The notes below the pieces were generated by a model. It had not been told where the DNA came from. It made no database searches and saw only the letters and a list, made by a program, of their open reading frames with translations. From positions 1 through 48,803 of the forward strand of contig JACPTF010000010.1 in the NCBI GenBank assembly GCA_016192915.1: DNA of 48,803 nt, in the 5' to 3' direction. This DNA comes from Candidatus Woesearchaeota archaeon (GTDB lineage: Archaea > Nanobdellota > Nanobdellia > Woesearchaeales > UBA10216). Of the stretch, positions 9,620 to 32,299 are shown in pieces; position 1 is the first letter of the stretch, and each line of letters starts with the position of its first letter. Both the position numbers and the translations under genes were made by a program.

Positions 9620-10063
9620 ATGACGCAGGTAATCTTAGCCTTCCCAGGTACTGGAAAAACGTATTTCCAGCAGCACACACCCTTAAGAGTGCTTGACTCT
9701 GATTCAAGTAAATTTTCCTGGAGCAGCGAAGGAGTAAGGAATCCTGACTTTCCAGGCAACTATGTTGCTCACATAAGAGAGTCAATGGGAATAGCTGACA
9801 TCGTATTAGTTTCATCCCACGCCCCAGTTAGGGATGCTTTGGTGAGGGAAGGGATTCCATATACCCTAGTTTTCCCTTATAGAAACTTGAAAGACGAATA
9901 CATAGAGCGATTCAGGCAAAGGGGAAGTTCCGAAGCTTTTGTCGACCAGGTTGCTAAGAACTGGGACGGCTGGATTTCTGAATTGGAACAACAGGTTGGC
10001 TGCACTCCAGTTAGGCTGTCAGCTGGGCAATACCTGAGCGACCTTTTTCCACAAAAGACTTAA
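9620..10063 (+). CDS. P-loop nucleoside/nucleotide kinase-like protein
   Basis: 147 residues. The N-terminus VILAFPGTGKTYF is a Walker A P-loop; LRVLDSDSSKF follows and may bind the acceptor, and VLVSSHAPVRDALV resembles a Walker B region of small kinases. Similar proteins are annotated as adenylate-kinase-like or phage-encoded nucleotide kinases. The start is ATG 9620 because the TATA box at about 9591 fits a nearly leaderless message, and the more upstream frame would begin inside the promoter. It directly precedes the broken archease copy, whose promoter-like AAAGACTTAAAT overlaps its stop. Confidence 0.65.
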   Translation: MTQVILAFPGTGKTYFQQHTPLRVLDSDSSKFSWSSEGVRNPDFPGNYVAHIRESMGIADIVLVSSHAPVRDALVREGIPYTLVFPYRNLKDEYIERFRQRGSSEAFVDQVAKNWDGWISELEQQVGCTPVRLSAGQYLSDLFPQKT

Positions 10064-10089
10064 ATTGCCGGTTCTGAATCCTTCTTGAG

Positions 10090-10179
10090 ATGAAACAATA
10101 CGAATACCTTTCCCACACGGCTGACGTGAAATTCCGCGCATATGGGAAGTCAGTTTACCGAATGTCCAGTGGCATTTGA
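10090..10179 (+). pseudogene. Truncated second copy of archease 5' end
   Basis: A 29-codon frame encodes MKQYEYLSHTADVKFRAYGK, which matches the start of the intact archease 1.08 kb downstream (YEYLPHTADVKFLAYGK). It then runs into a 102-nt repeat element and stops. The promoter is duplicated too: AAAGACTTAAAT precedes both copies at comparable distances. Nucleotide divergence is substantial, so the duplication is not recent. Confidence 0.85.
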
Positions 10180-10265
10180 GGTGTTTTTGGGCTGCTTTGT
10201 GAATGAAACTCCGGAAGGCTTCCGGTTGTCACCGCAAGAATTCCGTAATTTTGGTCCCACTGGAC
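10164..10265 (+). repeat. 102-nt element, copy 1, with GTCCAGTG inverted ends
   Basis: Begins GTCCAGTG (10164-10171) and ends CACTGGAC (10258-10265), an 8-bp terminal inverted repeat. A second copy of exactly the same length is at 31977-32078; by hand alignment 73 of 102 positions match without gaps. One frame is open through both and gives related peptides sharing ETPE, FG and TG. A TATA box GGGTTTATAAAT follows within about 30 nt. Confidence 0.75.
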
Positions 10266-10322
10266 ACTGGACAACTGTGCGGCGAGGGTTTATAAATGAC
10301 AGATAGTATCTTATTGTGTAAA

Positions 10323-11153
10323 ATGGACACTCATACTGCGATGGTGGTATTTCAAGGCAAAAATATACGAAGGATTTGGTTCAATGAAGAATGGTGGTTT
10401 GTAGCTATAGACGTAATTGCAGCCTTAACAGACTCCGCAGACCCTTCAGGATATTTAAAGGACATGCGCAGGAGAGACGAAGGGTTCGCTCAAGGGTGGG
10501 TGCAAATTGCCACCCCCCTTCGAGTAGACACGCCTGGGGGAAGGCAGAACATGAGTTGTGTCTCAACAAAAGGAGCATTCAGGCTTATCCAGTCCATCCC
10601 CTCAAAAAAGGCTGAGCCGTTTAAACAGTGGCTTGCACAGGTAGGCTACGACCGCGTAAAAGAGATAGACAATCCTGAACTTGCCCAAAAGAGAATGCGC
10701 GAGATTTACGCAGCCAAAGGCTACTCTGACGAATGGATTGAGAAGCGAGTCAGAGGCATAGCAGTAAGAGACGAGCTTACCGGAGAATGGAAGAAGCGCG
10801 GAGTGCAAGAGGAAAATGAATATGCCATTCTGACTGCTGAGATATCAAAAGCAGCTTTCGGGCTGACTCCAAGCCAGTATAAGAAGCTTAAAGGGCTAAA
10901 ACAGGAGAACCTCAGAGACCACATGGATGACTTGGAACTGATATTCACAATGCTTGGAGAAGCCTCAACCACCAGAATCGCAAGAAACAAGGACGCACGA
11001 GGATTCGGTGAAAACGAAAAAGCTGCGGTTGAAGGTGGAGAAGTGGCTGGCGTGGCGCGCTCAGAGCTTGAAAAGCGAAGCGGACAGCCGGTAGTTAGCC
11101 CTGAAAACTTTCTGGAAGAGCCAGAGAAGGAAAAACGCAAAAGACTTAAATGA
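10323..11153 (+). CDS. BRO-N/DinD-like phage antirepressor-type protein
   Basis: 276 residues. The N-terminal part is a BRO-N domain: FQGKNIRRIWFNEEWWFVAIDVIAAL, then YLKDMRRRD, and VSTKGAFRLIQSIPSKKAEPFKQWLAQVG. The C-terminal half (about 120-245) resembles DinD/BRO C-terminal domains with RGIAVRDELTGEWKKRGV and ILTAEISKAAFGLTPSQYKKLKGL. Such DNA-binding proteins are common in viruses and mobile elements. ATG 10323 is preferred over 10296 because TATA GGGTTTATAAAT at about 10286-10297 would put transcription start near 10320. It sits between the broken and intact archease copies, so it probably arrived with the rearrangement. Its stop overlaps the archease upstream region. Confidence 0.82.
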   Translation: MDTHTAMVVFQGKNIRRIWFNEEWWFVAIDVIAALTDSADPSGYLKDMRRRDEGFAQGWVQIATPLRVDTPGGRQNMSCVSTKGAFRLIQSIPSKKAEPFKQWLAQVGYDRVKEIDNPELAQKRMREIYAAKGYSDEWIEKRVRGIAVRDELTGEWKKRGVQEENEYAILTAEISKAAFGLTPSQYKKLKGLKQENLRDHMDDLELIFTMLGEASTTRIARNKDARGFGENEKAAVEGGEVAGVARSELEKRSGQPVVSPENFLEEPEKEKRKRLK

Positions 11154-11173
11154 CCAATTCTGAGCGTATCCCC

Positions 11174-11608
11174 ATGAGCAAATCCCTAAAATACGAATAC
11201 CTGCCCCATACTGCCGATGTGAAGTTCCTGGCTTACGGAAAGACGTTGGAAGAGGCGTTCTCCAACGCAGCTGTTGCAATGTTCAACGTGATGGTTGAAA
11301 CCGCAAAAGTGAAGCCCAAAACAGCCAAGAAGATCGCTGCCGAAGGGGCCGATTTAGAATCGCTGCTGCAGAACTTTCTTGAGCAGTTCATAATCCTGCT
11401 TGACACTGACAACTTTTTCCTTTCAAAGATTAAAAAAATTGAAATCAGGAAAAGCAGCAGTAAATACTCCCTTAACGCTGTTGCAACCGGCGACGAAGCC
11501 AAAAACTACGAAACAATTGGACCCCAGGTAAAGGCGTGCACATACAATAGCATGCTCGTGCAGCAGAAGGGGAAAGCGTGGATGGTTCAGGTAGTGGTTG
11601 ACATATGA
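11174..11608 (+). CDS. Archease, RtcB ligase activator
   Basis: 144 residues. Archease stimulates RtcB guanylylation and turnover in tRNA splicing and repair. Seen: the family start KYEYLPHTADVKFLAYG with metal-binding Asp, EEAFSNAAVAMFNVM, the LLQNFLEQFIILLDTDNFFLS core, and the C-terminal KACTYNSMLVQQKGKAWMVQVVVDI. ATG 11174 (MSKSLKYEY) lies about 25-30 nt after TATA-like ACTTAAATG; upstream ATG 11150 overlaps the BRO gene stop and is less likely. The hydrolase gene start overlaps its stop and rtcB follows that, so archease and RtcB appear to be co-expressed. Confidence 0.95.
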   Translation: MSKSLKYEYLPHTADVKFLAYGKTLEEAFSNAAVAMFNVMVETAKVKPKTAKKIAAEGADLESLLQNFLEQFIILLDTDNFFLSKIKKIEIRKSSSKYSLNAVATGDEAKNYETIGPQVKACTYNSMLVQQKGKAWMVQVVVDI

Positions 11609-16339: not shown

Positions 16340-16912
16340 TCACCTCTCCACAACCTCAACCTCCTTCTCAAAGAGCTTGACAATTGTTGAGGGCTTGCCC
16401 TGCTTTTCGCCTTCGTAAATTATGAAGTCAACCTTCTGGCTAATACTCTCTTCAAGGTCATCAATCGAGGTCATGTAGGGCTCGCCTGTTATGTTGGCGC
16501 TGGTGCTGACTATTGGGATACTAAGTTCTGCAACGAGCTCTGAAATCCAGTGCCTTGGAATTCTAATGCCTAGTGTGCTGCTGCTTAAATTCACAGCTGG
16601 GGCAACTGCAGAGGAAGCCTTAAGCCTGAAAATGAGCGTATAGGGCCCTGGCAGCCTGTCAATCCACTTTTCGCCTTCCAGGGAAACCTCGCAGTTATCA
16701 AATACCCACCTTTTGGAAGGCACAATCACAGAGAAAGGCATTGATGTGCGCTGCTTTATGCTCCGGATGCGCTGCACAGCCTTCTCATTGGTCGCGTCAC
16801 AGCCTATTCCGTAGATGGTGTCGGTAGGATGCATGAATACGGCACCCTGGCTTATCAGCCTTAGATATTTTACCTTGCCCGCAACGAACTCCTCCTTTGT
16901 TACGATTTCCAC
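16340..16912 (-). CDS. sua5: L-threonylcarbamoyladenylate synthase (Sua5/YrdC/TsaC)
   Basis: 190 residues. Makes threonylcarbamoyl-AMP from Thr, bicarbonate and ATP for t6A37 on ANN-decoding tRNAs; the transfer step is done by KEOPS, which is not in the window. Seen: the family start FMHPTDTIYGIGCDATNEKAV, the K-Q-R-T segment VQRIRSIKQRTSMPFSV, the PGPYTLIFRL strand, GIRIPRHWI, and PIVSTSANITGEP near the C-terminus. Only the YrdC domain is present, no Sua5 C-terminal domain. Stand-alone, convergent with the HExxH gene. Confidence 0.95.
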   Translation of the reverse strand: MEIVTKEEFVAGKVKYLRLISQGAVFMHPTDTIYGIGCDATNEKAVQRIRSIKQRTSMPFSVIVPSKRWVFDNCEVSLEGEKWIDRLPGPYTLIFRLKASSAVAPAVNLSSSTLGIRIPRHWISELVAELSIPIVSTSANITGEPYMTSIDDLEESISQKVDFIIYEGEKQGKPSTIVKLFEKEVEVVER

Positions 16913-17058: not shown

Positions 17059-17220
17059 TCACAAAAGCGCCCCCGGAAAAACGTTTTTTCCTACAATCCT
17101 CAGCTCAGGCCTCCTGTTGCCATCCTTAAGCTCCTTCAAGCTGCGGATGCTCAACTCCTTAAAACGCCTGAAAAACAATTCACTTACCATACCCACGCTG
17201 AACTCTGTTGGCAAACCCAT
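17059..17220 (-). CDS. 53-residue basic miniprotein
   Basis: ATG at 17220 with GAGGTGAGG just upstream, one of the strongest ribosome sites in the window. The frame reads MGLPTEFSVGMVSELFF, then a basic helix-like stretch RRFKELSIRSLKELKDGN, and ends VGKNVFPGALL; the last codons fall in the CGCCCCCGGAAAA repeat. Its promoter (TATA GGGTATTTAAAGG near 17278-17289 on the minus strand) belongs to the CACTGGACACTGGAC module also found before the BRO gene. A GACCTTTTT/AAAAAGGTC hairpin lies in the presumed leader. Confidence 0.6.
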   Translation of the reverse strand: MGLPTEFSVGMVSELFFRRFKELSIRSLKELKDGNRRPELRIVGKNVFPGALL

Positions 17221-17277: not shown

Positions 17278-17318
17278 CCTTTAAATACCCTAGCCGGGCA
17301 GGTGTCCAGTGTCCAGTG
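17278..17318 (-). promoter_or_regulatory. CACTGGACACTGGAC promoter module
   Basis: On the minus strand this reads CACTGGACACTGGACA, then CTG, CGGC and AGGGTATTTAAAGG. The first 16 bases are identical to 10258-10273 and the whole is about 80% alike over 41 bases by eye. The tRNA promoter at 32071 is a shorter version. Confidence 0.6.
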
Positions 17319-17351
17319 GCACAGCCCTTTCCTCAACTGCGGTTGAGCAAA

Positions 17352-17470
17352 GCGCTGGCGGAAAACGGCTGGCGGAAAACGGCTGGCGGAAAACGGCTGG
17401 CGGAAAACGGCTGGCGGAAAACGGCTGGCGGAAAACGGCTGGCGGAAAACGGCTGGCGGAAAACGGCTGC
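17352..17470. repeat. Eight tandem copies of a 14-bp unit
   Basis: The unit GGCTGGCGGAAAAC repeats eight times at exact 14-nt spacing (CGGAAAAC at 17359, 17373, 17387, 17401, 17415, 17429, 17443, 17457), with no visible changes. As 14 is not a multiple of 3, the frames through it cycle, and the Gly/Trp/Arg/Lys peptides they predict are very unlikely to be real. It lies just upstream of the promoter module of the miniprotein gene. Confidence 0.9.
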
Positions 17471-31534: not shown

Positions 31535-31939
31535 TTAGAATAATCTTATCGGTTTAACTCTTATTCCAAACGGGTCATAAGGAGACTTGGGCTTTGGTTT
31601 ACTGGGCTTACCAGGTTTTTCTTTACCTTTCGAAAAATATTTTTTGTATCTCTCTGGAAAGTTTCTTTTCATGTAAATCTTTAGGTTTTGTTTTCCCATT
31701 CCCCTATTACAAATTTTACAAATAAGCCTAGTATCAGGAACAGAGTATTGCCCTCCAGCTTTTATGCGACCGGCTTCTACATGTTCATAACTTATTTTTC
31801 TTCCGCAACAGAAACATGGTCCTTCATATTTTCCCTTCCACCATTTGACTCTTAATTGGTCACGGATAGTTTTCGGGCAAGACTTTTTTGAATTAGATGG
31901 TGTTTCCCACACATTCGGAATATCAAAATTTATGGACAT
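31535..31939 (-). CDS. HNH endonuclease
   Basis: 134 residues. Zinc-knuckle HNH fold: CFCCGRKISYEHVEAGRIKA, then LICKICNRGMGKQNLKIYM; two CxxC pairs and the EHVEAG catalytic segment are visible. A basic Pro/Lys-rich tail (KPGKPSKPKPK) follows. Homing, phage or restriction roles are all possible. AT-rich, unlike its neighbours, which suggests acquisition. It lies beside the second 102-nt element. Confidence 0.82.
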   Translation of the reverse strand: MSINFDIPNVWETPSNSKKSCPKTIRDQLRVKWWKGKYEGPCFCCGRKISYEHVEAGRIKAGGQYSVPDTRLICKICNRGMGKQNLKIYMKRNFPERYKKYFSKGKEKPGKPSKPKPKSPYDPFGIRVKPIRLF

Positions 31940-31976: not shown

Positions 31977-32078
31977 GTCCAGTGTCATTCTTGGCGTTTT
32001 TAATGGCTGTTGTGAGTGAAACTCCGGAAAGATTGCGGCGGCTGTCGGAAGAATTACGATTTTTTGGCTCCACTGGAC
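31977..32078 (+). repeat. 102-nt element, copy 2
   Basis: Ends GTCCAGTG (31977-31984) and CACTGGAC (32071-32078). Same length as the copy at 10164 and 73/102 alike without gaps. It is followed within about 12 nt by GGGTTTATAAG, the TATA box of the tRNA. Confidence 0.75.
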
Positions 32079-32087
32079 ATGTCCGGC

Positions 32088-32100
32088 TAGGGTTTATAAG
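32088..32100 (+). promoter_or_regulatory. tRNA TATA box
   Basis: AGGGTTTATAAGC, about 40 nt before the tRNA 5' end, directly attached to the end of the 102-nt element. Confidence 0.6.
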
Positions 32101-32138: not shown

Positions 32139-32211
32139 GCCGCTATAGCACAATGGCAGTGCGCCGAGCCTAGTCAACTCGGAGGCGTGGGTTCGATTCC
32201 CACTGGCGGCT
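32139..32211 (+). tRNA. tRNA with 9-nt anticodon loop (Asp GUC or Thr AGU by position)
   Basis: Acceptor GCCGCTA/TGGCGGC, D-stem GCAC/GTGC, and T-arm GTGGG-TTCGATT-CCCAC all pair. The anticodon stem CCGAG/CTCGG encloses nine bases, CCTAGTCAA, instead of seven, so the anticodon is ambiguous: GUC (Asp) if an extra base sits before it, or AGU (Thr) if the inner pair is opened. The discriminator is U, more usual for archaeal tRNA-Thr than tRNA-Asp. No CCA is encoded. Confidence 0.75.
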
Positions 32212-32247
32212 CACAAATCGCCACATTAAATACCGAGCCTAGTCAAC
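32164..32247 (+). repeat. 15-bp direct repeat of the tRNA anticodon arm
   Basis: CCGAGCCTAGTCAAC occurs in the tRNA (32164-32178) and again at 32233-32247 in the spacer, 69 nt apart. It could be the mark of an old integration at the anticodon loop. Confidence 0.6.
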
Positions 32248-32299
32248 ACCAACAACAGTAACGATAGACATATTTAATGCTTTTGTAAAAAGAAAAAAG

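Follow-up and report, generated by a model that had tools for sequence, protein, structure and literature searches.

A LexA-regulated SOS system has been stated to be lacking in archaea, and Halobacterium, in which radA1 is the most UV-induced gene, is reported to show no SOS-like response (PMC1224876). The UV-response hexamer of Sulfolobus lies at -39 to -44 (PMC5817253), and archaeal activators typically bind upstream of the BRE (PMC5512572; PMC4158304). Here, we describe a promoter element of Woesearchaeota that has a fixed geometry and most often precedes an operon encoding a small protein and RadA. Together with a predicted regulator, this operator probably governs a LexA-free, SOS-like response that would be induced by DNA damage. 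Literature searches on the motif and on SOS responses in Woesearchaeota returned nothing relevant.

The window, which is the whole 48,803-nt stretch analyzed (C3:1-48803 of genome G000, which comprises 1.198 Mb in 20 contigs), contains two copies of a 102-nt element (Table 1). The first-pass annotation had described both as exactly 102 nt long, with identical 8-bp ends (GTCCAGTG and CACTGGAC) and leading straight into a TATA box; this description is accurate, with each copy running into GGGTTTATAA, and only the ungapped likeness of the two needs correction, from 73/102 to 72/102. By chance, 0.0003 exact pairs of ends with this separation would be expected in a random genome of equal size. The genome-wide search proposed in that annotation did yield a third full copy in the same genome (G000:C14:19481-19590, 76% identity), as well as about ten additional copies across relatives (G001, G003, G004, G005, and G007 of the same genus and G009 of the same family), behind which lie BRO genes, a toxin-antitoxin-like operon, tRNA genes, and RadC. 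An inverted heptamer stands 91 to 95 bp ahead of the double site in 11 cases. At 31977, this heptamer points toward a TATA-like sequence and an oppositely oriented ORF, so that this copy may be a divergent promoter; such an arrangement was not seen in the other copies looked at.

Table 1. Features of the 102-nt element, the operator, and neighboring genes in the window
Feature	Coordinates	Strand	Remarks
Truncated copy of archease promoter and 5' end, on left flank of element-BRO cassette	10052..10149	+	Aligns to 11138-11242
102-nt extended control region (probable), copy 1	10164..10265	+	BRO gene downstream
Inverted single half-site GTCCAGTG	10164..10171	-	94 bp upstream of double site
Operator CACTGGACACTGGAC, two tandem heptads	10258..10272	+	
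TATA box TTTATAA of copy 1	10289..10295	+	16 nt past operator
BRO-family gene under copy 1 promoter	10296..11153	+	Bro-N, E=3e-14; ORF as listed
Archease gene (presumed), right of cassette	11150..11608	+	
Sua5-like gene (presumed), downstream of 17304 promoter	16340..16912	-	Behind 56-aa small ORF
TATA box TATTTAAA of 17304 operator	17280..17287	-	
Operator CACTGGACACTGGAC without 102-nt body	17304..17318	-	
102-nt extended control region (probable), copy 2	31977..32078	+	
Inverted half-site of copy 2	31977..31984	-	Leftward: TATA-like sequence, then ORF 31535-31939 (-)
Single half-site CACTGGAC of copy 2	32071..32078	+	Second heptad lost or never present
TATA box TTTATAA of copy 2	32093..32099	+	14 nt past half-site
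tRNA gene 3' of copy 2	32139..32212	+	ARAGORN, Rfam RF00005

A BLAST search with the element also picked up numerous short matches to its right end, the operator CACTGGACACTGGAC, which is built of the heptads CACTGGA-CACTGGA-CA. Exact occurrences of this sequence number 18 in the 1.2-Mb genome, whereas the reversed control gives 0; it is present in 36 of 98 relatives, and it stands mostly without the 102-nt body. A TATA hexamer begins 13 to 17 nt past the motif at 177 of 192 unique sites, which are not independent events because related sites share ancestry; the link to promoters drawn in the first-pass annotation is right, and stronger than could be known from the window. In sets compiled without TATA preselection, the box lies 14 to 18 nt past the motif at 36 of 38 sites. 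Measured from start to start, the distance from operator to TATA is about 29 to 31 bp, and the start codon most often falls 42 to 46 nt past the motif, matching leaderless genes. The motif with its TATA box was found in 47 of 371 genomes of a phylum sample, all in the window's order (Woesearchaeota), which gives 47/199 for the order versus 0/172 for the rest of the class, a division tallied by hand. For most of the order, no exact operator is seen, or just that of radA, and such absences are weak evidence because the genomes are mostly metagenome-assembled genomes (MAGs). A viral origin was considered and rejected: 15 hits on viral contigs look like chance, and 0 of the 14 unique ones have a TATA box at that spacing.

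A third module, previously proposed to drive a miniprotein at 17220, is real and consists of CACTGGACACTGGAC on the minus strand (17304-17318) followed by a TATA box. From its sequence, we presume the gene downstream to be Sua5-like. Tandem 15-nt repeats (GGCTGGCGGAAAACG units) occupy positions 17350 to 17470, directly upstream of this promoter. To judge by sequence, the inverted ends of the 102-nt element are regulatory half-sites, and its right-hand double site is the order-wide promoter element. The element as a whole is probably an extended control region built round the operator.

One frame stays open through both window copies, which had been taken as a hint of a short peptide or a coding ancestor. 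We reject a coding or peptide reading, as the frame has stops in many other copies, small indels occur, and the suggested comparison of substitutions by codon position gave 12/8/10, with no bias. The further proposal of a tiny mobile promoter element is borne out for a promoter-plus-gene cassette and unsupported for the 102-nt unit moving alone. The BRO gene, which more probably begins with the ATG at 10323, some 50 nt past the operator, precedes an ORF that, from its sequence, we presume to encode archease. The promoter and 5' end of this gene are imperfectly duplicated on either side of the element-BRO cassette (10052-10149 versus 11138-11242; alignment score of 55, compared with at most 26 in 200 shuffles), and no BRO gene was found beside archease at same-genus loci. 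The truncated archease sequence on the left and the relatives lacking BRO together indicate that a promoter-plus-gene cassette has moved; in the window, the unit of 102-nt element and BRO gene is inserted at archease. It is very unlikely that the 102-nt unit is itself a MITE-like mobile element carrying a promoter. Its inverted 8-bp ends, its fixed length, and the presence of copies 70 to 76% identical ahead of different genes would suit such an origin, but the ends are the operator, which stands alone at most sites, and the right end runs on into the core promoter. Moreover, no transposase was linked to the unit, and inspection of the flanks by eye showed no target-site duplication, for which a check had been advised.

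RadA is the archaeal RecA/Rad51. The operon in which radA follows a small protein of ~95 amino acids is the commonest target of the operator, accounting for 31 of 177 promoters, with the window's genome included; RadA was confirmed at two loci by matches to NCBIfam equivalogs that exceed the cut-off. A period-7 tandem is kept 28 to 33 nt before TATA in 51 of 90 radA upstream regions, while periods 6, 8, and 9 are found in 8, 2, and 7 of the 90, and the count drops at other distances. The two radA heptads have also changed alike, to CACTGGT in both positions in G036, to CACAGGA in G050, and to CACTTGC in G057 and G078, and one-step intermediates such as CACTGGTCACTGGACA exist in other radA operators. 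Matched change of this kind is as expected if protein subunits each read one heptad. The small protein, found in 83 of 98 genomes, is modeled as four strands and a long helix (mean pLDDT of 84), and neither fold nor sequence searches against PDB gave a significant match; only at a guess might it bind single-stranded DNA. At two loci, the operator of this operon is immediately preceded by an RPA-like gene (L118, 4759-5826; L170, 5034-6038).

Other targets are diverse. In the window's own genome, they include NreA, a Cas4-like PD-DExK nuclease, RNase_H_2, BRO, TnpB, and LAGLIDADG genes, and elsewhere, they include Hef, integrase, DNA Pol IV, RadC, MCM, TBP, DUF763, a radical-SAM repair protein, DinD (above its curated cut-off), primase, DNA methylase, and the YhcG nuclease, along with homing endonucleases and toxin-antitoxin-like pairs. 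To prevent hand-picking, 30 distinct first genes were drawn by script, together with 30 background genes located on the same contigs. Among those with Pfam annotation, DNA-handling functions, as labeled by the analyst, were assigned to 16 of 20 first genes versus 4 of 15 background genes (Fisher p = 0.002), a small sample. In the window's own family, the operator often precedes mobile genes or tRNA genes rather than repair genes. We interpret the target genes as a putative DNA-damage response set, and they also fit a replication-phase regulon.

Several arrangements behind the operator are worth recording. Locus L142 carries four operators in a row (positions 232, 1947, 3281, and 4502), each followed by a gene whose type is either mobile or unknown (RhuM, BRO-like, YhcG nuclease, and DUF3800), forming an island of separately promoted genes. 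tRNA or tRNA-like genes stand under the operator in the window (32139-32249) and at L022, L030, L031, and L054. By eye, those of the window and L031 have 9-nt anticodon loops, and copies of anticodon-arm sequence, for example, CCGAGCCTAGTCAAC near 32234, occur just before or after such genes. A conserved structured leader RNA of ~165 nt extends from the expected transcription start, ~43 nt past the operator, at L023, L024, L026, L029, L072, L085, L307, and L309, mostly before LAGLIDADG-type genes. It has 49 predicted pairs, of which 7 show double-sided changes, and the one copy tested had no match in Rfam up to E = 1. At L065, this promoter has the sequence CTCGGAGGTAAAGAAAATG and lacks the leader, which therefore resembles an insert.

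Two readings of the target list compete with a damage response. In eukaryotes, MBF/E2F time DNA-synthesis genes to S phase, and an operator that did likewise here, without any damage response, would account for MCM, primase, and TBP as targets and for the RPA genes that adjoin the radA operon in two loci. We consider such a cell-cycle or replication-phase regulon unlikely, as the targets DinD, DNA Pol IV, Hef, NreA, and RadC have roles in damage or repair and MCM and primase are represented by one locus each, versus 31 for radA. It is improbable, too, that the operator is simply a strong promoter spread by mobile elements and taken up by repair genes by chance. BRO, TnpB, LAGLIDADG, integrase, and toxin-antitoxin-like genes are indeed frequent targets, and a BRO cassette was inserted at archease, but the best-conserved site over many families is that of radA, in an orthologous position and with co-evolving heptads, and the site is rare in most of the order.

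The sequence data were also searched for the regulator. LexA was rejected, given that S24 domains are absent from 79 of 98 genomes; the matches in the other 19 are mostly short and cover part of the model, and many operator-bearing genomes have none (e.g., G026, G027, G042, and G056). Protein family A1 occurs in 85 of 98 genomes, including all with two or more sites, and in a few of them its own promoter contains the operator. Its candidacy is weakened because the operator-bearing genomes G036 and G042, which keep the radA operator, gave no match; fold and sequence searches with A1, whose structure model is weak, produced no significant match. Candidate origin recognition boxes (ORBs), reading TTCCACAGGAAAC or nearly so and in some cases followed by a G-rich tail, were noted near cdc6 at L248, L253, L254, L256, and L272. 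The operator could be conceived as an Orc1/Cdc6 (ORB-type) site, as in the Orc1-2 damage response of Sulfolobus. CCAGTG is common to GTCCAGTG and some archaeal ORBs. Orc1-2 is the damage regulator of Sulfolobus (PMC9738581). We nevertheless regard this identity as highly improbable: the order's own candidate ORBs near cdc6 have the sequence TTCCACAGGAAAC and a G-rich tail, and each genome has a single Cdc6 match above cut-off and, therefore, no spare paralogue.

Returning to the SOS-like response that we favor, a putative regulator would bind the two heptads with adjacent subunits, and the location of the site upstream of BRE/TATA makes an activator likely. Upon DNA damage or stalled replication, this protein would raise transcription of recombination, repair, and replication genes. 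In the 102-nt form, the inverted half-site 94 bp upstream may provide a second contact, through cooperative binding or looping, or may belong to a divergent promoter, as at 31977. Genes for DNA breakage (BRO, TnpB, homing endonucleases, integrases, and toxin-antitoxin-like pairs) would have acquired the same switch, and some may move with it. Whether this amounts to a true LexA-free SOS system, in which a new type of regulator reads and co-evolves with the radA heptads and selfish genes join via the operator, some of them as a 102-nt two-site promoter cassette, seems to us evenly balanced.

The radA-centered 15-bp operator makes the question of a coordinated DNA-damage regulon in archaea outside Sulfolobales testable from sequence and metatranscriptomes. 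Conserved across a large DPANN order, it allows regulon members and transcription starts to be predicted, along with a regulator that should co-vary with the heptad variants. It also places homing endonucleases, TnpB, BRO, and toxin-antitoxin-like pairs under one switch with repair genes.

Among known systems, MITEs share with the element the form of a short repeated unit with inverted ends; here, by contrast, the ends are operators that mostly occur without the body, and no target-site duplication was visible. The EarA boxes of Methanococcus, a set of four 6-bp sites that precede the BRE, and Ptr2 sites are likewise repeated short activator sites adjoining the BRE (PMC5512572), and the Woesearchaeota operator similarly keeps a fixed distance upstream of BRE/TATA, but its sequence and gene set differ from theirs (the archaellum operon and rubredoxin, respectively). 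The Sulfolobus damage-response element (DDRE), A(N)TTTC, with Orc1-2 and TFB3, is also a short nonpalindromic motif just upstream of BRE/TATA of damage-response genes (PMC5817253, PMC9738581). In contrast, the operator described here is a 15-bp heptad tandem, conserved across an order and centered on radA, in genomes that have one Cdc6 match above cut-off, and so no non-initiator Orc1 paralogue at that cut-off, and a different ORB; the motif is also other than the A(N)TTTC hexamer. Bacterial LexA-regulated SOS systems are alike in placing a shared operator before a RecA-family recombinase, a translesion polymerase, DinD, integrases, and toxin-antitoxin-like genes, just as a common operator here precedes recombinase and repair genes (radA at 31 of 177 promoters, Hef, Pol IV, DinD, and RadC). 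The S24 peptidase domain that, with a DNA-binding domain, characterizes LexA is absent from many of the genomes that bear the operator, and where LexA reads a palindrome, the Woesearchaeota operator consists of direct repeats, at the position of an activator, in an archaeal promoter.
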